This document shows positions 1,251-14,885 of a stretch of 46,154 nucleotides of DNA, in pieces. A program made the position numbers and the translations under genes. The notes under the pieces are model-generated. The model worked only from the letters and a program-made list of their open reading frames with translations. It was not told the origin of the DNA and made no database searches. The stretch is from a virus: the IMG/VR virus record IMGVR_UViG_3300012931_000031, positions 1 through 46,154 of that record, one strand, 5' to 3'. Each line of letters begins with the position of its first letter. The first letter of the stretch is position 1.

Positions 1251-2162
1251 ATGATGGAACTTTCAAGTTACGGTAGTGTTTACAATATCGGCCATAAGGC
1301 TATTGACGGTATATGGGACAATGAGGTGGTGATTGAAGAAAAAATAGATGGTAGTCAATTCTCCTTTGGCGTGGTTGGAACTGATTTATTTGTAAGGTCT
1401 AAGGGGTCTGCTTTATATTTTGATTCTGACGGGAAATGTAATCAAGCCATGTTTCAAAAGGCCGTAGATACCGCTTTTTTCTTATTCCATCATGGATTGA
1501 TTAACAATGGTACAACCTATTACGGCGAATATCTGCAAAAACCTAAGCATAATGTCTTAAATTATAGTAGAATCCCCGCAGGTTATATCATAATTTTTGA
1601 TGTTATGATTGGCGACCAAGTATTTTTGTCTCCAGAAGAAAAGAAAATAGAGGCCGGTCGTATCGGCCTTGAGTGTGTACCGTTACTTCATATTGGCCGG
1701 ATAAACGATTTTGAGGGGATGAAACTGCTATTAGAGCGTGAGTCAATTTTGGGTAATACTTTGATTGAGGGTTTTGTTGTCAAAAATTACAACAAATTTA
1801 CGGTTGACAAAAAATATATGAAGGGTAAATTTGTATCGGAAGCTTTTAAGGAAACACACAATAAGAAATGGAAAACGGAAGGCAATAAAAAAGAAATTAC
1901 CCAACTTATAATCGAAACCTTGCGTAATCCGGTTCGCTGGGAAAAAGCAGTTATCCACCTCAAAGAACGTGGAGAATTAACTAATAGTCCTAAAGATATT
2001 GGTGCGCTTATTATTGAGGCACAAACAGACATCAGTAAAGAAGAAACGGAATGGATAAAAGACCAACTTTATAAACATTTTAGGGGAACTATACTACGTG
2101 GTAGTATAGCCGGTTTACCAGAATGGTATAAAGAACGGTTGGCTAAAGAGAGCTTCGGGTAA
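1251..2162 (+). CDS. RNA ligase (nucleotidyltransferase superfamily)
   Basis: 303-residue ATP-dependent RNA ligase-like protein. Nucleotidyltransferase motif I is EEKIDGSQF near residue 30, with the Lys that would take up AMP; motif III is T-Y-Y-G-E-Y near 88; motif IV is E-G-F-V-V-K-N near 173; motif V is K-Y-M-K-G-K-F near 187. The order and spacing fit the T4 Rnl2/DRB0094 type rather than a large DNA ligase. Phage RNA ligases typically reseal tRNAs cut by host anticodon nucleases. No polynucleotide kinase/phosphatase partner is visible in this window. Tandem ATGs at 1251 and 1254; 1254 has better spacing from AAGGGAAAG. Confidence 0.88.
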   Translation: MMELSSYGSVYNIGHKAIDGIWDNEVVIEEKIDGSQFSFGVVGTDLFVRSKGSALYFDSDGKCNQAMFQKAVDTAFFLFHHGLINNGTTYYGEYLQKPKHNVLNYSRIPAGYIIIFDVMIGDQVFLSPEEKKIEAGRIGLECVPLLHIGRINDFEGMKLLLERESILGNTLIEGFVVKNYNKFTVDKKYMKGKFVSEAFKETHNKKWKTEGNKKEITQLIIETLRNPVRWEKAVIHLKERGELTNSPKDIGALIIEAQTDISKEETEWIKDQLYKHFRGTILRGSIAGLPEWYKERLAKESFG

Positions 2163-5358: not shown

Positions 5359-5701
5359 GCGGCTGTTTGCCAAACGCAAACCGAAAACTATCTGGGCAGA
5401 TCAGACATGGGCGGAAGATGGTTATACACCGGCACTTTTAGTATATTTAGATACGCTAAAAGTAAAAGGTAAAGATCTGATAGTTTTTGATTATCACGAT
5501 GGACAAAACGATATTAATCCTACCGATATTGTTTTTGTACCGGTTAAATACGACACAATCGGTAGGGAATTACTTTACGATATGTATTATTACAACAAAC
5601 ATACTGGACAGATAAGGAGGCATGACTTTGAAAAATGTGATAAGGCGTTTGATGAATTTATTCAGAAGCAAAAGGCCGAAAGCTATCTGGATAAAGTATA
5701 G
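5342..5701 (+). CDS. Hypothetical protein
   Basis: 119 residues, no known domain recognised. The basic N-terminus (W-I-K-R-L-F-A-K-R-K-P-K-T-I-W) looks amphipathic and resembles the start of the next protein (R-L-M-N-L-F-R-S-K-R-P-K-A-I-W). The shared stretch may be a common targeting or interaction motif. Overlaps the next gene by about 74 nt in a different frame. Confidence 0.6.
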   Translation: MLNWIKRLFAKRKPKTIWADQTWAEDGYTPALLVYLDTLKVKGKDLIVFDYHDGQNDINPTDIVFVPVKYDTIGRELLYDMYYYNKHTGQIRRHDFEKCDKAFDEFIQKQKAESYLDKV

Positions 5702-6587
5702 GGAATTATCGCCAAAAGAGAAGATGCTCAAGATTGTGGGTAATTGCCGGAAATCGACAGAACGGTATAACCAGAATTACTTAGATCAACTATTCGGGAT
5801 GGCAAACCCGTTTTATCAACAAGAAATGGCACGGGGAAAAGTACAACAACCACATCCCCCGAAAACAGATTTTTCTCCCCTTTATCACCCACTCCAAGCA
5901 TATTATCGCAGCGTGGCCTTACGGATGGAGAAGCCGACAGTTATGAGATGGGAATGCGATGAGGATGATTTATTGGCTTCTGATTTAATTGGTCAATGGG
6001 AGAGATCGGAACGCAGGCGCAAATTGAAGAAGGAAGTATTGGATAACTTTAACGCTAAAATAGCGGCAAAGGATAAATTGATTGATGATGGTTTACTTGC
6101 TCGACGAGACCGGTTGTTGGCCTCTGATCCCTACAGCGATACGGTAAAAAGGTTGGCAAGGTTATGTATTAATGCACAATACGGCATAGGTATTTTAGCA
6201 ATTAAAAAAGAACTTGAGACATTGGGTCTTGGGGAATATTTAGGCTTAGTTGCGGGGAAAGTTGGATTTCAAAACAAAGAAGAATTTTATTTAAAGGAAT
6301 GGCAGAAGATATTGCAGGCACGTCCGACACCGTTAAAGCCAAACGTAGCCCCCTACGAGGCTCAAGGCGAGGCGCAAGGGATAAAAACGGATAACGAGAG
6401 GGGGGGGAAAAGTCCGATTGTGTTATGCCCCAAATGCGACAAGGAATTTATTGATGAAAAGATAAGGATTGGGGGCAATATGGAATATAGTAAATGGCCT
6501 ACTATATGCAAGGGATGCGGAACTCTTTGCATAGTAGCGGTAATTCCTGTACCCAAAGCGGGTACAAGTGTACCCAAAAAGAGATAA
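5628..6587 (+). CDS. Hypothetical protein with C-terminal zinc ribbon
   Basis: About 319 residues. The middle is charged and helical. A C-terminal zinc ribbon (C-P-K-C ... C-K-G-C, about residues 268-300) precedes a short basic tail. The start is ambiguous: AAGGAGG ends one base before ATG 5622, too close for use, whereas TTG 5628 in the same frame has a 7-nt spacer, so TTG is preferred. The first third lies over the end of the previous gene. No family recognised; its position beside the helicase genes suggests a DNA-metabolism or takeover role, but that is inference. Confidence 0.6.
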   Translation: MKNVIRRLMNLFRSKRPKAIWIKYRELSPKEKMLKIVGNCRKSTERYNQNYLDQLFGMANPFYQQEMARGKVQQPHPPKTDFSPLYHPLQAYYRSVALRMEKPTVMRWECDEDDLLASDLIGQWERSERRRKLKKEVLDNFNAKIAAKDKLIDDGLLARRDRLLASDPYSDTVKRLARLCINAQYGIGILAIKKELETLGLGEYLGLVAGKVGFQNKEEFYLKEWQKILQARPTPLKPNVAPYEAQGEAQGIKTDNERGGKSPIVLCPKCDKEFIDEKIRIGGNMEYSKWPTICKGCGTLCIVAVIPVPKAGTSVPKKR

Positions 6588-6655
6588 GTTTAGCGGAGTA
6601 CCGGCGTGCTTTTGCTAAGTTAATGGCTAAGATTAACAAAGTAGGAAAGGATTAA
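6515..6655 (+). CDS. Possible overlapping 46-residue protein
   Basis: A frame that starts inside the preceding gene and runs past its stop to 6655. The last 23 residues (S-L-A-E-Y-R-R-A-F-A-K-L-M) look like a genuine amphipathic helix, and a Cys pair occurs earlier. The Shine-Dalgarno sequence is poor. It could instead be a short gene starting at an internal codon, or chance. Confidence 0.3.
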   Translation: MRNSLHSSGNSCTQSGYKCTQKEISLAEYRRAFAKLMAKINKVGKD

Positions 6656-6658
6656 GCG

Positions 6659-6739
6659 ATGGAGTGTTTGGTAGTGTTATTGTTTGGTTTTATTTTAGGT
6701 TTTCTTTTGGGTCTTTTTGTCGGGTGGTGGGATGAATAG
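6659..6739 (+). CDS. 26-residue membrane microprotein
   Basis: An almost wholly hydrophobic peptide with a G-x3-G-like helix and ending W-W-D-E. GGAAAGG lies about 9 nt upstream of the ATG. One transmembrane helix fits it exactly. Function unknown; tiny phage membrane peptides can act on lysis or exclusion. Last plus-strand gene before the convergent terminator. Confidence 0.5.
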   Translation: MECLVVLLFGFILGFLLGLFVGWWDE

Positions 6740-6742
6740 AAA

Positions 6743-6771
6743 TAGAAAAGGGCGGCTTTTATTGGCCGCCC
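6743..6771 (-). terminator. Terminator between convergent operons
   Basis: Perfect 7-bp stem GGGCGGC/GCCGCCC (6750-6756 with 6765-6771), loop of eight. On the minus strand it is followed by a T-rich tract, so it is best read as the end of the minus-strand operon. It may also stop plus-strand transcripts. Confidence 0.7.
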
Positions 6772-6795
6772 ATGCGTAGGAGCGAAAAATGAGGA

Positions 6796-6930
6796 TTAAT
6801 TTTTGTCCCTATTGGGTTTTCTTCTTACGGTAGTTATCATTTTGATTGATTCAGCAAACCATTGTTTCAATTGGTCATTAACACCTTCGGGGCTGAAGGT
6901 AAATCTTACAATTTCGTGCATTCTAAACAT
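6796..6930 (-). CDS. Small hypothetical protein
   Basis: 44 residues starting at ATG 6930, chosen because a GAGGAG Shine-Dalgarno sequence lies seven bases upstream; a longer frame to 7008 would overlap the gene at 6941-7075. Basic C-terminus. Last gene of the minus-strand operon. No family recognised. Confidence 0.6.
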   Translation of the reverse strand: MFRMHEIVRFTFSPEGVNDQLKQWFAESIKMITTVRRKPNRDKN

Positions 6931-6940
6931 CTTATTCTCC

Positions 6941-7075
6941 TCAATTCTTACTTGGTTTAAATCGTTGAAAATACTGGCAACTTTCGCAACGTGGTCTGTC
7001 TTTTTCACCTCGCCAGTTGCCGATTGCTAACGCGATGGCCGCGATCCAGCCGAGTATAGCAATTATTGTCCACAT
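6941..7075 (-). CDS. Small membrane protein with CxxC
   Basis: 44 residues: a hydrophobic N-terminal helix (about 1-20, rich in Ile and Ala) then a basic linker and C-E-S-C. GAGGGAG lies about 8 nt before the ATG. The stop is 11 nt before the next start. Possibly a membrane-anchored half zinc-ribbon; function unknown. Confidence 0.6.
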   Translation of the reverse strand: MWTIIAILGWIAAIALAIGNWRGEKDRPRCESCQYFQRFKPSKN

Positions 7076-7077
7076 GG

Positions 7078-7242
7078 CTAATTCTCCCTCAAAAGGATTT
7101 GCTCTATTACTTCTGTTACTGTGCTATCTGGTTGTTCATCTATAACCGCCTTGCAAATATGACAACTGGGTTCGCTTTTGTGATGTATGTAATTGTGTTC
7201 GCATTCGCAATCCCAATATTCCGGTGTTGTAAGTATTTTCAT
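7078..7242 (-). CDS. Small Cys/His-rich protein
   Basis: 54 residues. D-C-E-C-E-H at 11-16, then His pairs and C-H-I-C near 27-30, a zinc-finger-like set of ligands. Shine-Dalgarno GGGG/AAGG upstream. Starts with a 4-nt ATGA overlap with the end of the gene at 7239-7460, so it is translationally coupled. Function unknown. Confidence 0.6.
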   Translation of the reverse strand: MKILTTPEYWDCECEHNYIHHKSEPSCHICKAVIDEQPDSTVTEVIEQILLREN

Positions 7243-7460
7243 GGCTTTTCCCCTTCTTCTTTTATCCTATTAGCTATTGCAAGTATAAGGCTTGAGTCGT
7301 ATTCCGTGCCGATTTCTTGTGTCTCTATCCCGATTAGTGGTGTTTCTATGCACATATTCACCCCGTTGACTCCATTTGCGTTGTGTTCTGACATTTCATA
7401 CCAATCATCACCAATTCTAACCGTAAATGTTGGTTTTGTTTCAAAAATTTTAATTTCCAT
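7239..7460 (-). CDS. Hypothetical protein
   Basis: 73 residues starting at ATG 7460, with GAGGAG 7 nt upstream. The first half looks like beta strands (E-I-K-I-F-E ... F-T-V-R-I-G-D-D-W-Y) and the second half is helical. No family recognised. Part of the tightly packed minus-strand operon. Confidence 0.6.
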   Translation of the reverse strand: MEIKIFETKPTFTVRIGDDWYEMSEHNANGVNGVNMCIETPLIGIETQEIGTEYDSSLILAIANRIKEEGEKP

Positions 7461-7461
7461 C

Positions 7462-7731
7462 TTACATCTCCTCGTATTGTATGCCGACAAACTTATAGTC
7501 GGGGTAATTTGCGACAATGATCTCGCAAGCTATATGACACAACTCTTTTATTGTCGTCAAGTTTAACGGTTTTCCCAGTGAACCGTCTAATGGCAAAGAA
7601 TTTTCGGGGCTTGAATCGCATGGATTGTTGCCAGATTCGCATAACGATTCGCCAGCACATCCCCTTCCGTCAAACATATCCACGCGATAGCCGTTTTCAT
7701 TGTAGTATCCGATAATTGTTTTCTTACTCAT
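7462..7731 (-). CDS. Hypothetical protein
   Basis: 89 residues with several Cys (C-A, C-E, C-D, C-H-I-A-C) and a Gly/Ser/Pro-rich middle. No clear finger motif. It ends one base before the GAGGAG leader of the next gene. Function unknown. Confidence 0.55.
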   Translation of the reverse strand: MSKKTIIGYYNENGYRVDMFDGRGCAGESLCESGNNPCDSSPENSLPLDGSLGKPLNLTTIKELCHIACEIIVANYPDYKFVGIQYEEM

Positions 7732-7763
7732 TTTTTACGCTCCAGTATTTCAGTTGCCCGGAA

Positions 7764-8012
7764 TTACCGGATAACTGACGGTTTACATTCGTAAAAGTCA
7801 CTATAGTGTTGGGGTATCCCGATGTATTCGGGATTAGTCGCTATGGCTCGGTCTTCTTCCGGGTAATAAGTGATTGGCCAATTGTCACTTTCAAGGTCTT
7901 TTAGTATTTCTTTCGCCGTTTGGCCGTCTTCTGCTTCTTGGTTAATAATTAATTTTTCTTTTTCAAACCCAGCATCTCCGACAATATGTGTTATTTTGTA
8001 AAATTTGCTCAT
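7764..8012 (-). CDS. Hypothetical protein
   Basis: 82 residues, acidic; an N-terminal strand-rich part with K-I-T-H-I-V, then a helix with A-K-E-I-L-K-D-L. AGGAGC Shine-Dalgarno sequence upstream, the same leader style as several neighbours. Function unknown. Confidence 0.6.
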   Translation of the reverse strand: MSKFYKITHIVGDAGFEKEKLIINQEAEDGQTAKEILKDLESDNWPITYYPEEDRAIATNPEYIGIPQHYSDFYECKPSVIR

Positions 8013-8065
8013 TTTTTATGCTCCTGTTTTAAAGTTTTATCGTTTCGCTATTGCTTTTTAATTTC

Positions 8066-8296
8066 CTAAGCCTCTGTTAATTTTTGATATTGAGCCAATA
8101 TATACTTAGGTATATCGTCATGCTCCGGCAACGCCTCATACCAGATAGCGGGGCAACCATATTTATTTTGCTCCGTATCGCTAAGCCGATAGATATTGTA
8201 TCCTATTGACCCATCGTTATAATTTAATTTTACTATTTTCCACTTGCCGTTGGGGGATCTATAGGCAATTATTTTTTTTTCTTCTGGGGCTCTCAT
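8066..8296 (-). CDS. Hypothetical protein
   Basis: 76 residues from ATG 8296, chosen for AGGAGG nine bases upstream; the frame stays open to 8341 but without a better RBS. Contains S-P-N-G-K-W-K-I-V and G-Y-N-I-Y-R-L, a small beta-rich fold. It follows hammerhead copy 1 in the transcript. Confidence 0.6.
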   Translation of the reverse strand: MRAPEEKKIIAYRSPNGKWKIVKLNYNDGSIGYNIYRLSDTEQNKYGCPAIWYEALPEHDDIPKYILAQYQKLTEA

Positions 8297-8361
8297 ACTA
8301 TTTTCCTCCTGTTTAAGGTTCCGTGTGATAGCCGGTTTCATTTTTTAAAGTTTTATCGTTT

Positions 8362-8414
8362 GCCTAAGACGGCCATTGCTGGCCGTTTCGCTGCTTATAG
8401 CTCATCGGTTAGGC
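8362..8414 (-). ncRNA. Hammerhead-ribozyme-like RNA, copy 1 (core variant)
   Basis: On the minus strand it reads: helix I GCCUAA (8414-8409), core C-C-G-A-U-G-A (8408-8402), helix II GCU/AGC with a six-base loop, G-A-A, helix III ACGGCCA/UGGCCGU closed by a GCAA tetraloop, C17 at 8368, and helix I UUAGGC. This is a type I hammerhead layout with predicted cleavage between 8368 and 8367. One conserved core base differs (C instead of U4), so activity is doubtful. It starts directly after the TAA of the gene at 8415-8552. Helix II differs from copy 2 in compensating positions. Confidence 0.8.
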
Positions 8415-8552
8415 TTAATCACGTAAATAGAGTCGTTTAATATTATTATACTCGGTTGGGGTGATAACTATACTCTCATAGCCATCTTGTTTTCCCCATT
8501 CCTTGCGGGGGTTGCCGTTTTTGTCATTTGTGGTTTTTAGTTTAATTATCAT
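8415..8552 (-). CDS. Small hypothetical protein
   Basis: 45 residues, with GAGGAG seven bases before ATG 8552. Basic N-terminal half, then I-V-I-T-P-T-E-Y. No family recognised. It lies between the two hammerhead motifs, and its stop codon abuts helix I of copy 1. Confidence 0.6.
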   Translation of the reverse strand: MIIKLKTTNDKNGNPRKEWGKQDGYESIVITPTEYNNIKRLYLRD

Positions 8553-8553
8553 T

Positions 8554-8736
8554 TTACATCTCCTCGTTTTCCAATACTTGGTTAATTTTGTCTCGTAACA
8601 AAACTAATTCGGTTTTTGTTACTAAGCCGTAGGGTCTTGTCTCGGTTCCGCCTGTTTCTGTCCAATGAGCATACCAGTAGTCTTTGCCGCCTATACTGGT
8701 TTCTTGTTTTTCAATATGGATTCCAGAGAGTTTCAT
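8554..8736 (-). CDS. Small hypothetical protein
   Basis: 60 residues: strand-rich N-terminus (K-L-S-G-I-H-I-E-K) and a helical C-terminus (E-L-V-L-L-R-D-K-I). AGGAGC Shine-Dalgarno sequence 6 nt upstream, located just 3' of the predicted hammerhead copy 2 cleavage site. Its mRNA would thus begin with a cleaved 5' end. Function unknown. Confidence 0.6.
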   Translation of the reverse strand: MKLSGIHIEKQETSIGGKDYWYAHWTETGGTETRPYGLVTKTELVLLRDKINQVLENEEM

Positions 8737-8764
8737 TTTTTCGCTCCTGTTTAAGGTTAATTTT

Positions 8765-8817
8765 GCCTAAGACGGCCATTGCTGGCCGTTTCGTCTATTC
8801 TGACTCGTCAGTTAGGC
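8765..8817 (-). ncRNA. Hammerhead ribozyme, type I, copy 2
   Basis: Every conserved core position is present on the minus strand: helix I GCCUAA (8817-8812), C3-U4-G5-A6-C7-G8-A9 (8811-8805), helix II GUC/GAC with loop AGAAUA, G12-A13-A14 (8792-8790), helix III ACGGCCA/UGGCCGU with a GCAA tetraloop, C17 at 8771, helix I UUAGGC (8770-8765). Predicted self-cleavage is between 8771 and 8770. Its first base is the G of the upstream gene's TAG stop. The family cuts RNA by transesterification, leaving a 2',3'-cyclic phosphate and a 5'-OH. Confidence 0.9.
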
Positions 8818-8990
8818 TAATATCTGTCGAATATAATAGTTATAGTTTCTGTCTGTTCCGGTTGTAAGTCTGACAATTCCTCGACTATTAATGAGTTAAA
8901 TCGTTTGATGGCCTCTTTTTGTGTCTTGTAATTGTCGTGATAGGTGTCGGCTTTGTTACCGGCAGTAAAGATAACTCTACTACTAATCAT
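8817..8990 (-). CDS. Small hypothetical protein
   Basis: 57 residues. N-terminal R-V-I-F-T-A-G, then a helix with T-Q-K-E-A-I-K-R-F, and a strand T-I-T-I-I-F at the end. AGGAGCG Shine-Dalgarno sequence upstream. Its stop codon shares a base with helix I of hammerhead copy 2. Function unknown. Confidence 0.6.
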   Translation of the reverse strand: MISSRVIFTAGNKADTYHDNYKTQKEAIKRFNSLIVEELSDLQPEQTETITIIFDRY

Positions 8991-9010
8991 TTTTCGCTCC
9001 TGTTTAAAGT

Positions 9011-9247
9011 TTATCGTTGCGGATAATGCCCTATATCGATTGTCCAGCCGCCTCTGCGACCGCCTCTGCGTAAGTCCCAGACCTTGCCGCCATACATGGC
9101 CTTAATCGCTACTTTTGCCGATTTTTTTGTATTGTGGATATACCCCTCTTGTGGGTACTCAACTGTCCCGTCCGGTAATATGGCCTGTATAACATAGTTA
9201 CCGTGTCTCTCTACGATTTGGATTTTTGCTCTTTGATTTGATTTCAT
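9011..9247 (-). CDS. Small basic hypothetical protein
   Basis: 78 residues, basic, with an Arg/Gly-rich stretch (L-R-R-G-G-R-R-G-G-W) near the C-terminus that suggests nucleic-acid binding. First gene after the strong minus-strand promoter, preceded by GGGAGCG. Family not recognised. Confidence 0.65.
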   Translation of the reverse strand: MKSNQRAKIQIVERHGNYVIQAILPDGTVEYPQEGYIHNTKKSAKVAIKAMYGGKVWDLRRGGRRGGWTIDIGHYPQR

Positions 9248-9291
9248 TTTTCGCTCCCAGTTTTAAAGGTTTTTATCTCTTACGCAACTGC

Positions 9292-9320
9292 AATATATAT
9301 TACCGTTATCGGTTTGTCAA
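9292..9320 (-). promoter_or_regulatory. Sigma70-type promoter of the minus-strand operon
   Basis: Minus strand: -35 TTGACA (9320-9315), 17-bp spacer, -10 TATATT (9297-9292). Consensus -35 and near-consensus -10, giving a leader of about 40 nt before the start at 9247. The same two hexamers and spacing recur at 34124-34152. Confidence 0.8.
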
Positions 9321-9379
9321 GAGAAATCTTTAACAAAACATAAGATTTTATTAACCTTAATTACAATTATTTTTGCCGA

Positions 9380-9395
9380 TTGAGACAAATCTCAA
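9380..9395. promoter_or_regulatory. Palindromic operator-like site 1
   Basis: TTGAGACAAATCTCAA, a perfect 6-bp inverted repeat around CAAA. It lies between the two divergent promoters. Related palindromes occur at 9818 and 10411. A bound regulator is inferred; none is identified. Confidence 0.5.
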
Positions 9396-9411
9396 AGAAA
9401 ACACTTGACTT

Positions 9412-9440
9412 TTGCTCTTTTTTTGCGATCTCTATATACT
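9412..9440 (+). promoter_or_regulatory. Candidate plus-strand promoter
   Basis: TTGCTC (9412-9417), 17-bp spacer, TATACT (9435-9440). The -10 is good and the -35 weak. It directly abuts ATG 9441, so a transcript started here would probably use a later start codon or be nearly leaderless. Confidence 0.4.
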
Positions 9441-9821
9441 ATGAGAGATAAACAAATTGAAGACATGGCACGCAAGATTGACCTGCCCCGTCAGATAGAC
9501 AACATAATCAATCTATATCAGCTGTCCCAGCAACTCCAAGCCGATCTACAACAAGAGGCCTACATAGCAATCATGGAGTGCATATTAGATTGCGAGGCCA
9601 AGCACTGCACGCCCTTGCGTAGCATTATCGCCGGTCGCACAACCCGCCGACTCCACGATGTTGCCGCCGCCGAGTCAAGACACGGGCTAACAATCAAGGA
9701 CACCTTTGTCCCAATCGACCCGCTCCCGCCTGATACCGCCGCCCGTAACAATAGCATATTAGCACAAGTAGGCGTTGGTTTTGCGCCAGAAGCCTTAATT
9801 GAGTGTATCCGGCTAACTTGA
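9441..9821 (+). CDS. Sigma-factor region-2-like small protein (tentative)
   Basis: 126 residues. The middle (about 29-75), with D-L-Q-Q-E-A-Y-I-A-I followed by P-L-R-S-I-I-A-G-R and R-R-L-H-D, resembles region 2 of sigma-70-like factors, where D-L-x-Q-E-A-x-I-A-L precedes the -10-recognition helix. No region 4 follows. It could redirect host RNA polymerase to late genes, or the resemblance may be superficial. Start uncertain: ATG 9441 has no Shine-Dalgarno, and ATG 9465 is an alternative. First gene of the rightward late region, flanked on both sides by TTGAGAC palindromes. Confidence 0.45.
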   Translation: MRDKQIEDMARKIDLPRQIDNIINLYQLSQQLQADLQQEAYIAIMECILDCEAKHCTPLRSIIAGRTTRRLHDVAAAESRHGLTIKDTFVPIDPLPPDTAARNNSILAQVGVGFAPEALIECIRLT

Positions 9822-9834
9822 GACACAATCTCAA
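9818..9834. promoter_or_regulatory. Palindromic operator-like site 2
   Basis: TTGAGACACAATCTCAA, the same half sites as at 9380 with a five-base centre. It overlaps the stop codon of the preceding gene. Confidence 0.45.
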
Positions 9835-9870
9835 TTAAAACAGCCCCTATAATGCCCCAGAATGCACGAT

Positions 9871-9906
9871 CTATACACCGCCCTACCATTTGTATAGCCC
9901 GTTTTT
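9871..9906 (+). terminator. Weak terminator-like hairpin
   Basis: Stem CTATACA/TGTATAG with a 13-base loop, then CCCG and five T. The gap between stem and T-run makes efficient termination uncertain. Confidence 0.3.
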
Positions 9907-9950
9907 AACAATTTCAGCCCCTTAAAACCTTATAAAAGTGTAATATAGAT

Positions 9951-10442
9951 ATGAGTAACCAATTACAAAAGCAAAACATTGACAACAACTCCACTATACC
10001 GATCAGGCCAAGCGAAAAAAATTTCCAACTGTTTGCATTATACCGGCAAGGTCTGTCATGCGAGGAAATAGCCAAACGTGAGGGGCTTACGTTGAGGGAT
10101 ATACAATACCACATTGGCAAGGTGCGACAATGGCTTAGCGATGACTGGGACAGATTCACCCGTCAAGATATGCGACTGGAGTATGACAAAGTCAAGCAAA
10201 AGTGGACGGAATTGGTCGATGATCGACACGCCCCGACAATCATGCAGTATATGGAGAAAGAAGTATATGCTAAACCAACGGCTAAGCCAACGGCACAGAT
10301 TAACGTAATGACTGTAGTCAACGGCATGACTGGAGCGCAGGCATACGATAGTGACGTGATAGTTGAGCAAGCTGGAGATGATGGAGTATATGAGCCAACA
10401 ACGGCTGATATTGAGACAACGTCTCAAGATCGAGTGCAATAG
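9951..10442 (+). CDS. Putative small terminase / HTH protein
   Basis: 163 residues. A helix-turn-helix (about 24-60: L-Y-R-Q-G-L-S-C-E-E-I-A-K-R-E-G-L-T ... I-Q-Y-H-I-G-K-V) is followed by a helical, acidic middle and a poorly ordered C-terminus. An N-terminal HTH ahead of an oligomerising helical part, two genes before the large terminase, fits a small terminase subunit that recognises the packaging site. The same HTH type also occurs in sigma region 4, so a regulatory role is possible. One TTGAGAC palindrome lies inside the coding sequence. Confidence 0.55.
   Translation: MSNQLQKQNIDNNSTIPIRPSEKNFQLFALYRQGLSCEEIAKREGLTLRDIQYHIGKVRQWLSDDWDRFTRQDMRLEYDKVKQKWTELVDDRHAPTIMQYMEKEVYAKPTAKPTAQINVMTVVNGMTGAQAYDSDVIVEQAGDDGVYEPTTADIETTSQDRVQ
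10411..10427. promoter_or_regulatory. Palindromic operator-like site 3
   Basis: TTGAGACAACGTCTCAA, a perfect 7-bp inverted repeat around AAC, inside the 3' end of the small-terminase-like gene. Same half site as at 9380 and 9818. Confidence 0.45.
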
Positions 10443-10452
10443 AGGCGCGTAC

Positions 10453-10644
10453 GTGCGCGATCGTTGTGTGGCCGGTATGATTGCATGGCCTGATTGTGCG
10501 TGTACAGCCATTGTCAGCGCAGGCTTGCCGGCGTCAACAGCGTGCAGGCAGAACAAGCACCCCTACGGCAGGGGGATGACCGACAGTGCCGTCAATGCGA
10601 GGGAGGGAATGCCTACTCGCAAACTTCTGGAATTTTTAGAGTAA
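10453..10644 (+). CDS. Possible small protein in GC-rich spacer
   Basis: 63 residues from GTG 10453, with AGAGG seven bases upstream and directly after the previous stop. Cys-containing; ends T-R-K-L-L-E-F-L-E. GC content is clearly above the flanking genes, and the DNA has several hairpins (CCCC/GGGG near 10560; ACGGCA/TGCCGT near 10566-10593). It may instead be a structured or packaging-site region. No family recognised. Confidence 0.3.
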   Translation: MRDRCVAGMIAWPDCACTAIVSAGLPASTACRQNKHPYGRGMTDSAVNAREGMPTRKLLEFLE

Positions 10645-10716
10645 GTGGAGCGAAAAATAGATTAATGATAAAAAGCAGTAAGTTGTTGAAAACGAATGGC
10701 GAAAAGGGATTAAGGA

Positions 10717-11304
10717 ATGCGTAAATGGATGATTTTTCTGGTATTGGCGATGTTGGTATCGGTGATATTTGCGGCAGATCGCAAGGTGAACGATTATTTA
10801 CAGCATGGCAGTTTTGATTATCAGTTGGTACAGACGGCGTTTGACAGTAACGGTGTTAACTTTAAGTCGAATATAGTAGCGATAATTGACACGGTGAGTT
10901 TTATAGCGATGAAGCCGGTACAGGGTGATTTTGGGTTATCGGTAACGGCTAACGACACTAATTGGTATTTTATATGTGGAGTACCGACTGGGATGACGGC
11001 GACATTGCGGAGTATTTACGTAACTTGTGAGACGGAACCTAACGATAACGGTAATACTGATGGTCGATTTGGGTTTGTATTTTATGATGCGTCAAAGGCT
11101 GATACTGTAGTAAAGTTAGGGACGGAGCGGCCATTGGATGCTGATTCGGCTTCATTAGTAGCGGGTAATTTGACGGCGTTTAGTCTTGATTCGGTGACGG
11201 CACTGGCGGCTGGCGACATAGTATTTTTGAGAACTTGGGCTGACACGGCCAATTTGGTATTGGATGGTGGCGGCTTCTTTGTGGACATTGACTATAACGA
11301 ATAG
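10717..11304 (+). CDS. Exported protein upstream of terminase
   Basis: 195 residues. The first ~20 form a Sec-type signal peptide: M-R-K-W, a hydrophobic run, and an F-A-A-D cleavage region. The mature part is Ala/Thr/Asp-rich and probably all beta, with repeated D-T-x-x-F and T-x-x-D-G motifs, as in head-decoration or receptor-binding domains. It sits directly before the terminase gene, a strange place for an exported protein. One of six late-region proteins here with a signal peptide. Function unknown. Confidence 0.65.
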   Translation: MRKWMIFLVLAMLVSVIFAADRKVNDYLQHGSFDYQLVQTAFDSNGVNFKSNIVAIIDTVSFIAMKPVQGDFGLSVTANDTNWYFICGVPTGMTATLRSIYVTCETEPNDNGNTDGRFGFVFYDASKADTVVKLGTERPLDADSASLVAGNLTAFSLDSVTALAAGDIVFLRTWADTANLVLDGGGFFVDIDYNE

Positions 11305-11309
11305 GTGAT

Positions 11310-12881
11310 ATGGATTTAGGTGAGTTTAAAAGGCTGAACCCGGATTATTCGGAGATAAAAGTCCCGCCATTACAAAAATTGAAGGACGGAAGAATTATAT
11401 CTACGCCGGAGGAGGCCTTTGTCACTACTTATTTATTACAACCTGGGCAGAACAAGACGGCGCAATTCATGCGTGAGGAGTATTGGGTACTCCAGAATCC
11501 TGATTTATATCCGAGGGCGTTGTTTATTGACCCTCGTGGTTTTGCGAAGAGTACAAGGGTTTGTGTATATGATAGTCTATACGATATTTATGTTCGTTCC
11601 GATTACGATTTATGTTTAGAGTTACAGAAACAGTATCCATTTGTCCCGTTTCAATATGATTTCTGTAATAGATTATATATAATCACAAATTCGGATGATT
11701 TGTCGGAACAATGGGTGGGGGAGATTAAGCGTAACATACAGGAGAATGAGAAGTTATTGGCTCATTTTGGGGATGTATCTACAGAAAGCGACAAAAACGG
11801 CATTTGGAGATCGAATCATATTCACGTAAAGACTAAATCTGGGATAATGGAGATAAAAGCGTTTGGGCGTGGTAGTACAATTCGTGGTGGTCGTCCCCGT
11901 AAAGTTAAAGTAGATGATATTTTAAAGGATAAAGACGGTGTTTATTCGGCAGAGGACAGTAAGAAGGCGGAGAAGTGGCTAAAGCGGTCGGTAGAGGGAC
12001 TGATGGACAGGCAGGATTGCCGGTTATATTGGACGGCTACTATCTTAGCCCCGGAGGACATGGTAGATAACGCTTATGAGAAACGTGATGATTGGAGTTC
12101 TTATAAGATGTTGCGTATTAAGAACTCGGCAGAAGACGTTAATGGCAAATCTATCTGGCCGGATAAGTTTCCGGATAAGTTTTTGAGATTCAAGAGGGAT
12201 CAGATGGGTGTTGAGGGATATTATGCTGAATATATGAATAAGCCGATTATAAGTAAGAACGCCATATTCAGGCGTGAGTGGATGCAAAATTCTTATACAG
12301 ACGATGAATTACCTAATAATTTATATAGGGTATTGTCGATTGACCCGGCGATGACGACAAAAGAGATAAATGATTATACGGCTTTTATAATTAATGGATA
12401 TTGTTACGAAGGTGTGCATAAGGGAGAAATATATACACTTGATGCTGAACAGGGGCATTGGGATAATGATAGTGTTGCCCGTCTTGCCTGCGAGAAATAC
12501 CGGTCATTTCGTTGCGACGTAATGGTATTAGAGATAAATGCGGCGCAGAAAGTATTTGGAACATTGATAAGGCGAGAAGCCAGAGATCATTCCATGTGGA
12601 TTAATCTTGAAGAAAAGATAACCGATACCGATAAAGTAAGACGTGCCAACAGTATAAACTTTTTGTATAAAAATAATTATGTGCGTTTCCGTAAAGACGA
12701 TCCGGCGCAAGCGGAGTTAATTAATGCACTTTGTATTTTCCCATCTGGAAGACATGACGATTTTGTTGATGCCGATATGATGAACTTGGAATTTGAAAAA
12801 GAACGCCATGAGTCGATGATGTCTTCTGTGGAAGAAGAAGAAGACGACAGACAACTGGCCTGTCCTGAATTGGGGTACTAA
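11310..12881 (+). CDS. terL: Terminase large subunit
   Basis: 523-residue packaging motor. ATPase part: an atypical Walker A in F-I-D-P-R-G-F-A-K-S-T near residue 72; G-R-G-S-T-I-R-G-G-R-P followed by K-V-D-D-I near 200, where D-D is the Walker B site. Nuclease part: L-S-I-D-P-A near 345, V-L-E-I-N near 405 and the final R-H-D-D-F-V-D-A-D near 490, the acidic residues of the RNase H-like fold that cut concatemers. Length and order are typical. The atypical Walker A resembles that of several podovirus terminases. Confidence 0.93.
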   Translation: MDLGEFKRLNPDYSEIKVPPLQKLKDGRIISTPEEAFVTTYLLQPGQNKTAQFMREEYWVLQNPDLYPRALFIDPRGFAKSTRVCVYDSLYDIYVRSDYDLCLELQKQYPFVPFQYDFCNRLYIITNSDDLSEQWVGEIKRNIQENEKLLAHFGDVSTESDKNGIWRSNHIHVKTKSGIMEIKAFGRGSTIRGGRPRKVKVDDILKDKDGVYSAEDSKKAEKWLKRSVEGLMDRQDCRLYWTATILAPEDMVDNAYEKRDDWSSYKMLRIKNSAEDVNGKSIWPDKFPDKFLRFKRDQMGVEGYYAEYMNKPIISKNAIFRREWMQNSYTDDELPNNLYRVLSIDPAMTTKEINDYTAFIINGYCYEGVHKGEIYTLDAEQGHWDNDSVARLACEKYRSFRCDVMVLEINAAQKVFGTLIRREARDHSMWINLEEKITDTDKVRRANSINFLYKNNYVRFRKDDPAQAELINALCIFPSGRHDDFVDADMMNLEFEKERHESMMSSVEEEEDDRQLACPELGY

Positions 12882-12884
12882 TTA

Positions 12885-14885
12885 ATGGCAGAATATAGAC
12901 CTACAGACAAGGAACTTAGTGACGCACGGGATTTAATCCGTAGTTTGCGTGATGCTTGGACTGATACATACACTATATTTTCTGATTATCGGCGTATGGC
13001 AGATGGCGGTTTGCCTAAAACTATGTCTGATATACTGGAAAGTAAAGAATATGCAAGGCGGTCTAAGTTGAAACCACGTTTGATAGTGGATGCTATAAAA
13101 GACCTTGTTTCCTATAGTAATCATACCATATTCCACAATACGGACGGGGCATACAATTTTATCCCGGTTGGTGATGATGATGAGGGGAAGGCTGAAAAGG
13201 CCAAGAAACTTGTCGATCACGGAGTATATTATACTGGGGCTAAAATGGTTTGTAAGAGTATTGCCCGTGATGCCGCCATTGTTGGGATAGGTTATGGAAT
13301 GATAAACCAACATTCCGAAGATAGATTGGTTCCAAAGAGTACAAAGAATTTTCTGGGCAAGATTTTCAATGTTGCGCCAAGTATGGAGAGACGGGAAATC
13401 TATAGTGGAGCCAAACTAAAGAGATTACTACCCGAATCTGTATTCCCGCAGAAGGTCAAACAATGGGAAGATGTTTCAGCTATTGCCCGTATATATTTAA
13501 CACCAATATCTTATTTGATAAATCAGACAGTTCCGGGTGGATTACTGGAGAGGTATTCTAAAGAAATCCGGGGATTGAAACGGACAGAAGTTAGCGACCC
13601 AGACGAACAATTCAATATCTATAAAGAGAACGAAGGCGATCAATTCAAGGATAGAAACATCCGTGATTTCCGAGTAAAGATAGGCGAATTATGGCAACTC
13701 GCCATGTATGGTGGAGATAAGTTTCCTACTTGGTATAGATTATGGATTGCTGATTTTGATAATGGAGACAGACAAGAACCATTAGTAATCGGTTTTCAAA
13801 AAGACCCAATGAAGACCGGTTATCATAATATCTTAAGAGCTATTATATTTCCTAATCCCGATAGGATAAACGGTTATGCTGTCCCGGAAATGTTAAAAGA
13901 CCTCAATCTTGAGATGTTTTATAAACGTAACCAAGTTATCGACTATGTTAATCTTTTGATGGCTGTTCATGGTACTATCTGGGGTAAGGATAACGGATTA
14001 CCTAAAGACGATATAGTAATGAAGATTGGCAAATACAAATCTCTTAAAACAGGTAATCCCAAGGAATTGCATACGGTTACTCTCGATGTTACGCCAGTGA
14101 CTGCTGCTTATCAGGAAATCGGTTTGATAAAACGGGATGTTGAGGAAACGATGGCGCAAAATAAGATTTCGTCCGGTAAAGACCCGATTAGACGGGAAGC
14201 TGCTACAATCGGAGCCATTATAGACGAAAATGCCAAGATACGCCAAACAGACCCGATAGAGGAATTGGAGGAGTCTCTCATAAAACCTATGGCTATGAGT
14301 TATCTTGTTCAGGCGCAGATATTTATGACAAGCGCACAGAGAATTAGAATACTCGGCAAGAACGGTTGGGAGTGGGAGATGGTAGAACCAAGCGATATAC
14401 AAGGTGCATTTGATGTTGAATGTGTAGCCTCAAGTCAAATTATACCACGTGCCATGAAACAAGCGAATGCAAATGCTATAATAAATACATTCGGAAATAA
14501 TCCATATCTTGCCCCTAAATTAGATTGGGGGGAGGTTTATAAAGCTGTATGCGATCTTATGGAATGGCCTCAAGCTAAGAAGTTTCTTAAAGATCCGACA
14601 ATGCTACAAGAAGAAATACAACGCGAAGAGGACTTCATGCTTGAGACAGGTATGGTATGGATTGTATTGCCAAGTGAGGACGATGTTGCACATCTTAATT
14701 CGCATATGCAACGTATTGCCGGTATAGATAATGGTAAAATGCACATCCAAGATCATTTGAACAGTATGAAAATTAAACAAGGACAAATAGGTGGTGTTGG
14801 TCAACAGACATCTCTTTATACGAATCAGGGCGAGGCGTTAAACGATATGGCTTCGACCAATGCCCCCAAAGCTATAGGACGATAG
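12885..14885 (+). CDS. Portal protein
   Basis: 666 residues, the length of podovirus portal proteins. It directly follows the large terminase (3-nt gap) and precedes a scaffold/capsid pair, the canonical portal position. Sequence features fit: a charged helical N-terminus, an early A-I-K-D-L-V-S segment, a long central mixed region, and a helical C-terminal part (about 550-640) like the portal crown or barrel. It should form the dodecameric DNA channel and docking ring for terminase and tail. Assigned mainly from position and length. Confidence 0.8.
   Translation: MAEYRPTDKELSDARDLIRSLRDAWTDTYTIFSDYRRMADGGLPKTMSDILESKEYARRSKLKPRLIVDAIKDLVSYSNHTIFHNTDGAYNFIPVGDDDEGKAEKAKKLVDHGVYYTGAKMVCKSIARDAAIVGIGYGMINQHSEDRLVPKSTKNFLGKIFNVAPSMERREIYSGAKLKRLLPESVFPQKVKQWEDVSAIARIYLTPISYLINQTVPGGLLERYSKEIRGLKRTEVSDPDEQFNIYKENEGDQFKDRNIRDFRVKIGELWQLAMYGGDKFPTWYRLWIADFDNGDRQEPLVIGFQKDPMKTGYHNILRAIIFPNPDRINGYAVPEMLKDLNLEMFYKRNQVIDYVNLLMAVHGTIWGKDNGLPKDDIVMKIGKYKSLKTGNPKELHTVTLDVTPVTAAYQEIGLIKRDVEETMAQNKISSGKDPIRREAATIGAIIDENAKIRQTDPIEELEESLIKPMAMSYLVQAQIFMTSAQRIRILGKNGWEWEMVEPSDIQGAFDVECVASSQIIPRAMKQANANAIINTFGNNPYLAPKLDWGEVYKAVCDLMEWPQAKKFLKDPTMLQEEIQREEDFMLETGMVWIVLPSEDDVAHLNSHMQRIAGIDNGKMHIQDHLNSMKIKQGQIGGVGQQTSLYTNQGEALNDMASTNAPKAIGR

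Follow-up and report, generated by a model that had tools for sequence, protein, structure and literature searches.

Two type I hammerhead ribozyme motifs at gene ends in a phage small-gene operon, and the placement of their counterparts across viral contigs

Introduction

Two closely similar motifs in the gaps of a phage gene cluster raise the question of whether the messenger RNA of an operon is cut by ribozymes encoded within it, and into which pieces. The cleavage chemistry of the hammerhead family is established, and the purpose of phage hammerhead arrays, known since 2011, is still unproven. The window analysed here spans the entire 46,154 bases of an IMG/VR record, and its genes for a terminase, a portal protein, DnaB, a DnaD-like protein and an SU10-type capsid protein identify it as a tailed phage. 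In prophages, Perreault et al. 2011 (PMC3088659) described several hammerheads placed around one gene or a short block of genes and proposed that they process long phage transcripts to short mRNAs; three arrays were shown to cleave in vitro, and one to cleave in E. coli. An earlier note on this DNA had regarded stop-adjacent processing of this kind as an undescribed arrangement, which was wrong because that paper had already reported the flanking clusters and proposed the same processing.

Results

Architecture of the paired motifs

A descriptor scan of the window placed two hammerheads of 53 nt each on the minus strand, copy 2 at 8817-8765 and copy 1 at 8414-8362, with a start-to-start distance of 403 nt, and returned no further match in the window. 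Both lie inside a series of about ten small genes on the minus strand, for which comparison with PHROG gave no significant match. The features of this region, all on the minus strand, are listed in the direction of transcription.

9292..9320, minus: sigma-70-like promoter TTGACA-17-TATATT (11/12) before the first operon gene; consensus match only
9011..9247, minus: first operon gene, 78 aa
8817..8990, minus: 57-aa gene, the last base of whose TAG stop is part of copy 2; no significant PHROG match
8765..8817, minus: type I hammerhead (copy 2) with the full consensus core, CUGACGA...GAAA...U-C17
8368..8770, minus: predicted 403-nt RNA between the cuts, with the 60-aa and 45-aa genes; deduced from the cleavage positions
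8554..8736, minus: 60-aa gene, start 34 nt past the copy 2 cut, AGGAG before the start; no PHROG match
8415..8552, minus: 45-aa gene, whose TAA stop ends one base before copy 1; no significant PHROG match
8362..8414, minus: type I hammerhead (copy 1) whose core, CCGAUGA, is the U4C variant
8066..8341, minus: next gene past copy 1; 91 aa if begun at 8341, 76 aa if begun at the ATG of 8296, which has an AGGAGG site
7764..8012, minus: operon gene, 82 aa
7462..7731, minus: operon gene, 89 aa
6750..6771, minus: terminator-like hairpin GGGCGGC...GCCGCCC with a T-rich tail at the operon end; consensus match only

Overall, promoter and terminator consensus matches are no more numerous than in shuffles. 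Near-identical leaders (AAACTTTAAAACAGGAGCGAAAAATG-like) precede most of the small operon genes (window 7731-9250, minus strand), and past hammerhead copy 1 there is another start, at 8341, which is weaker.

The two copies have in common an open helix I of 6 bp (GCCUAA/UUAGGC), a helix III of 7 bp (ACGGCCA/UGGCCGU) closed by a GCAA loop, the GAA with A15.1, and C17. Helix II, also closed, is GUC/GAC with loop AGAAUA in copy 2 and GCU/AGC with loop AUAAGC in copy 1, so that the compensating changes and differing loops proposed in the earlier note stand as read, as do its spacing of about 400 nt and its list of shared elements. Scored against the type I core (C3 U4 G5 A6 N7 G8 A9/G12 A13 A14/A15.1-U16.1/H17), copy 2, with CUGACGA, carries every position; copy 1, with CCGAUGA, carries every one except U4, where it has C, again in agreement with the first reading. 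Cleavage would be expected after C17, at 8771/8770 in copy 2 and 8368/8367 in copy 1, the sites already predicted from the letters, and the earlier placement of the motifs directly at stop codons, separating cistrons, is borne out by a TAG that shares its last base with copy 2 and a TAA that adjoins copy 1. Compared with each other, the copies are identical at 44/53 positions and their flanks at only 10/30 and 14/40, which indicates that essentially nothing but the ribozyme is repeated. Two features count against function: helix II is merely 3 bp in both copies, and in the minimum-energy fold of copy 2 part of the core is paired with the helix II region.

Covariance-model evidence for hammerhead identity

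The gathering score of RF00163 (Hammerhead_1), 34 bits, is a detection cut-off and not a biochemical definition, and at gathering thresholds Rfam reported no match in the window. By E-value, copy 2 gave a full-length RF00163 match of 31.3 bits (E 2.5e-5 for 1.9 kb against 4227 families; E 1.4e-7 in a search of its own genome), 2.7 bits below the gathering score. Copy 1 has no RF00163 match, and its best match under the E-value threshold is RF02275 at 15.9 bits. In the search with an Rfam hammerhead model that the earlier note had proposed as its check, Hammerhead_1 found copy 2, under 34 bits, and not copy 1. Both window motifs share with RF00163 the three-way junction, the open helix I, the conserved core and C17; they differ from it in the 3-bp helix II, in the lower score of copy 2 and in the C4 of the unmatched copy 1.

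Because copy 2 fell under the Rfam cut-off and copy 1 had no RF00163 match, we trained a covariance model, R1, on 40 phage hammerheads from viral contigs other than the window; it has no curated cut-off. In its training set the helices are paired in 98.5% of cells, both sides have changed in 13/15 pairs, and the covariation score is 0.745 against 0.157 in shuffles. Under R1 the score of copy 2 was 51.3 bits (E 1.7e-15) and that of copy 1 was 41.2 bits (E 7e-12); across the 46 kb window the third-best match reached 10.5 bits, and no additional, degenerate copies were found. The type I hammerhead identity first read from the letters is thereby upheld. Motifs that arose by chance, or that have decayed and lack ribozyme function, would fit the failure to reach the curated Rfam cut-off, but almost no credence can be given to this explanation in view of the E-values of the independent model, the paired helix II changes between the copies, the placement exactly at gene ends, and the shuffled sequence of all loci surveyed below, which gave no match of any kind even in a relaxed scan that tolerated a single change anywhere in the core. 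By sequence and predicted structure, both motifs are real hammerheads.

Placement of hammerheads across viral contigs

A scan of IMG/VR with two patterns led to the examination of at least 225 loci, in which the descriptor found at least 359 hammerheads in at least 192 loci, with two or more in at least 91 loci; among the matches listed, no locus had hammerheads on both strands. R1, applied to 50 whole records, found up to 15 copies per record. Some phage records, among them those with the loci L041 (G019), L017 (G009), L006 (G004) and L071 (G028), carry between 9 and 15 type I hammerheads, which lie at gene boundaries, on one strand, hundreds to a few thousand nucleotides apart. Same-strand arrays at gene boundaries are widespread in IMG/VR. 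The window terminase is detectable in only 2/50 hammerhead records, at 23-29% identity, and the arrangement is therefore common to unrelated phages.

For the position of gene ends, a non-redundant set among the matches listed comprised 236 hammerheads, 226 of them with a scorable upstream gene. Among these listed matches, the upstream stop is adjacent to the ribozyme (-10 to +3) in 86/226 (38% against 9.6% at random; Fisher p 2e-27) and lies inside helix I or the core (+4 to +11) in 101/226 (45% against 5.1% at random), which places it at the 5' edge or inside helix I or the core in 187/226. The adjacent class is the cleaner evidence, because the motif brings a UAA and a UGA of its own, which in part dictate the stops that fall within it: the core UGA (U4 G5 A6) is the upstream gene's stop in 42 of the 236 listed hammerheads, and the UAA ending helix I supplies it in a further 60. 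The first scan pattern demanded UUA after C17 and so favours UAA in helix I; for loci found by the second pattern only, the adjacent class among the matches listed is 39% against 9% (p 1e-10).

Downstream of the cut, an ATG with an open frame is found within 10-60 nt in 197/236 of the listed hammerheads, compared with 1475/4720 at random, at a median of 24 nt. With a possible tertiary contact between loop II and helix I in view, an A at position -1 beside helix I, which both window copies keep, was counted in 198/236 phage hammerheads among the matches listed, and the spacing between copies shows no bias modulo 3 (49/46/39) in the same listed matches. Together these placements define a rule: hammerheads on the same strand, the upstream stop at the ribozyme edge or inside it, and the next start about 24 nt past the cut. 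Such a rule makes ribozyme-based operon processing, an arrangement previously anecdotal, testable in many phages, to which this phage adds one more, compact example with a U4C variant beside a canonical copy. A text search of the main text of Perreault et al. 2011 (PMC3088659) did not find the words 'stop codon'. What the survey adds to that work is that the stop abuts the ribozyme or is supplied by it in most surveyed cases; we claim no novelty for this, the literature search having covered open-licence papers.

At L018, identical hammerheads stand at 1263 and 1631, 368 nt apart, and their identity suggests a recent duplication. For the window pair, the terminase and DnaB helicase have no confirmed relative in viral_contigs, blastn of 5500-12900 against phages gave no match, and the exact 29-nt motif does not occur in viral_contigs; no close relatives having been found, the evolution of the pair is not traceable in near relatives.

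The U4C variant in copy 1

The relaxed scan yielded, among the matches listed, 258 canonical hammerheads and three single-change variants, all of them U4C: one in L095, one in L223 and window copy 1. The other two U4C copies are on the minus strand, at 3005 in L095 and 6974 in L223, both in arrays beside canonical copies. Perreault et al. 2011 (PMC3088659) state that in vitro activity is considerably lower with U4C, although the variant is still sufficient for viroid infectivity in vivo. That viroid hammerhead, cited in PMC3088659, has the same single core change as copy 1, although it belongs to an RNA that replicates by rolling circle and copy 1 to the mRNA of a DNA phage.

These observations bear on whether copy 2 is the only working ribozyme, copy 1 being a decaying duplicate largely inactivated by U4C, with the operon cut once. 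We consider this rather unlikely. In its favour, the C4 of copy 1 occupies a conserved core position, the same change weakens activity considerably in vitro (PMC3088659), copy 1 scores 10 bits below copy 2, and the leader past copy 1, with the second start site at 8296, looks partly degenerate. Against this, copy 1 has changed helix II while keeping its pairing (GCU/AGC), it retains C17 along with intact helices I and III, and it is therefore not decaying freely; moreover, U4C recurs in two other phage loci as the sole core change found among the matches listed, and a viroid ribozyme bearing it suffices in vivo (PMC3088659). This recurrence, together with the viroid case, points to a copy 1 that is slower but functional. 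Copy 2 very likely cleaves in this phage; copy 1 probably cleaves as well, more slowly, as judged from a small number of U4C cases.

Discussion

The window pair resembles the arrays of Clostridium scindens, Azorhizobium caulinodans and Agrobacterium tumefaciens described by Perreault et al. 2011 (PMC3088659), in which same-strand hammerheads likewise flank phage genes or blocks. Taking a phage cluster as at least two same-strand hammerheads flanking phage genes, the window holds one, with two copies flanking two genes; it differs from those arrays in belonging to a different phage and in that one of its two copies is U4C. Given the identity and placement of the motifs, the two hammerheads in intergenic gaps very probably cut one small-gene operon mRNA into three pieces. 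A single primary transcript would run from about 9285 to 6745, and each ribozyme would fold soon after its transcription and cut after C17, leaving mRNA pieces of about 515, 403 and 1620 nt once both had acted. The piece upstream of a cut would keep its own stop codon and end in the ribozyme hairpins with a 2',3'-cyclic phosphate, and the piece downstream would begin with 5'-OH-UUAGGC, followed by a short leader up to the next ribosome-binding site. RNA with a 5'-OH and a structured, cyclic-phosphate 3' end is a poor substrate for 5'-monophosphate-dependent nucleases and for 3' exonucleases, and independent mRNA stability is therefore a plausible gain. The likely benefit would be that the stability and expression of the cistrons are uncoupled.

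The position of the stops also allows for a more elaborate version of transcript cutting in which cleavage is gated by translation, the terminating ribosome covering the 5' strand of the ribozyme and delaying its folding until ribosomes clear. We judge such gating improbable; if it did operate, stop-codon placement across phages would have been selected for timing and not for compactness alone.

A further explanation is that the excised 403-nt RNA with its two genes becomes circular, joined by reversal of the hammerhead reaction or by an RNA ligase, in the manner of retrozymes and viroid-like RNAs. Retrozymes and small circular RNAs with hammerheads resemble the window in that a segment a few hundred nucleotides long is bounded by two hammerheads in direct order. 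The identical helix I would allow the 5' UUAGGC of the released piece to pair with GCCUAA of the hammerhead at its own 3' end; the phage encodes an RNA ligase (1251-2162, plus strand; PF09414, 54.9 bits); and, among the matches listed, helix I sequences resemble each other more within genomes than between them (0.76 against 0.585), which those of helix II do not. However, helix III is likewise more alike within genomes among the matches listed (0.43 against 0.32), so that shared ancestry explains the likeness of helix I, and within-genome helix I identity is weakened as a sign of ligation. T4-type RNA ligases require healed ends, 5'-P and 3'-OH, and the window has no AAA_33 kinase for such end healing. 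PF09414 is found in 0/50 other hammerhead phage records, and on this count we rejected the idea that hammerhead arrays generally have an RNA ligase as partner. The window segment also departs from retrozymes in carrying two operon protein genes, in showing no retroelement features and in the lack of ligase association across hammerhead phages, and spliced or circular products were looked for by Perreault et al. 2011 (PMC3088659) and none were found. Closure into a circle is accordingly very improbable, and cutting of the operon mRNA into separate linear messages remains our preferred interpretation. The RNA ligase gene itself (1251-2162, plus strand) adjoins a VanY-type endolysin gene (629-1195).
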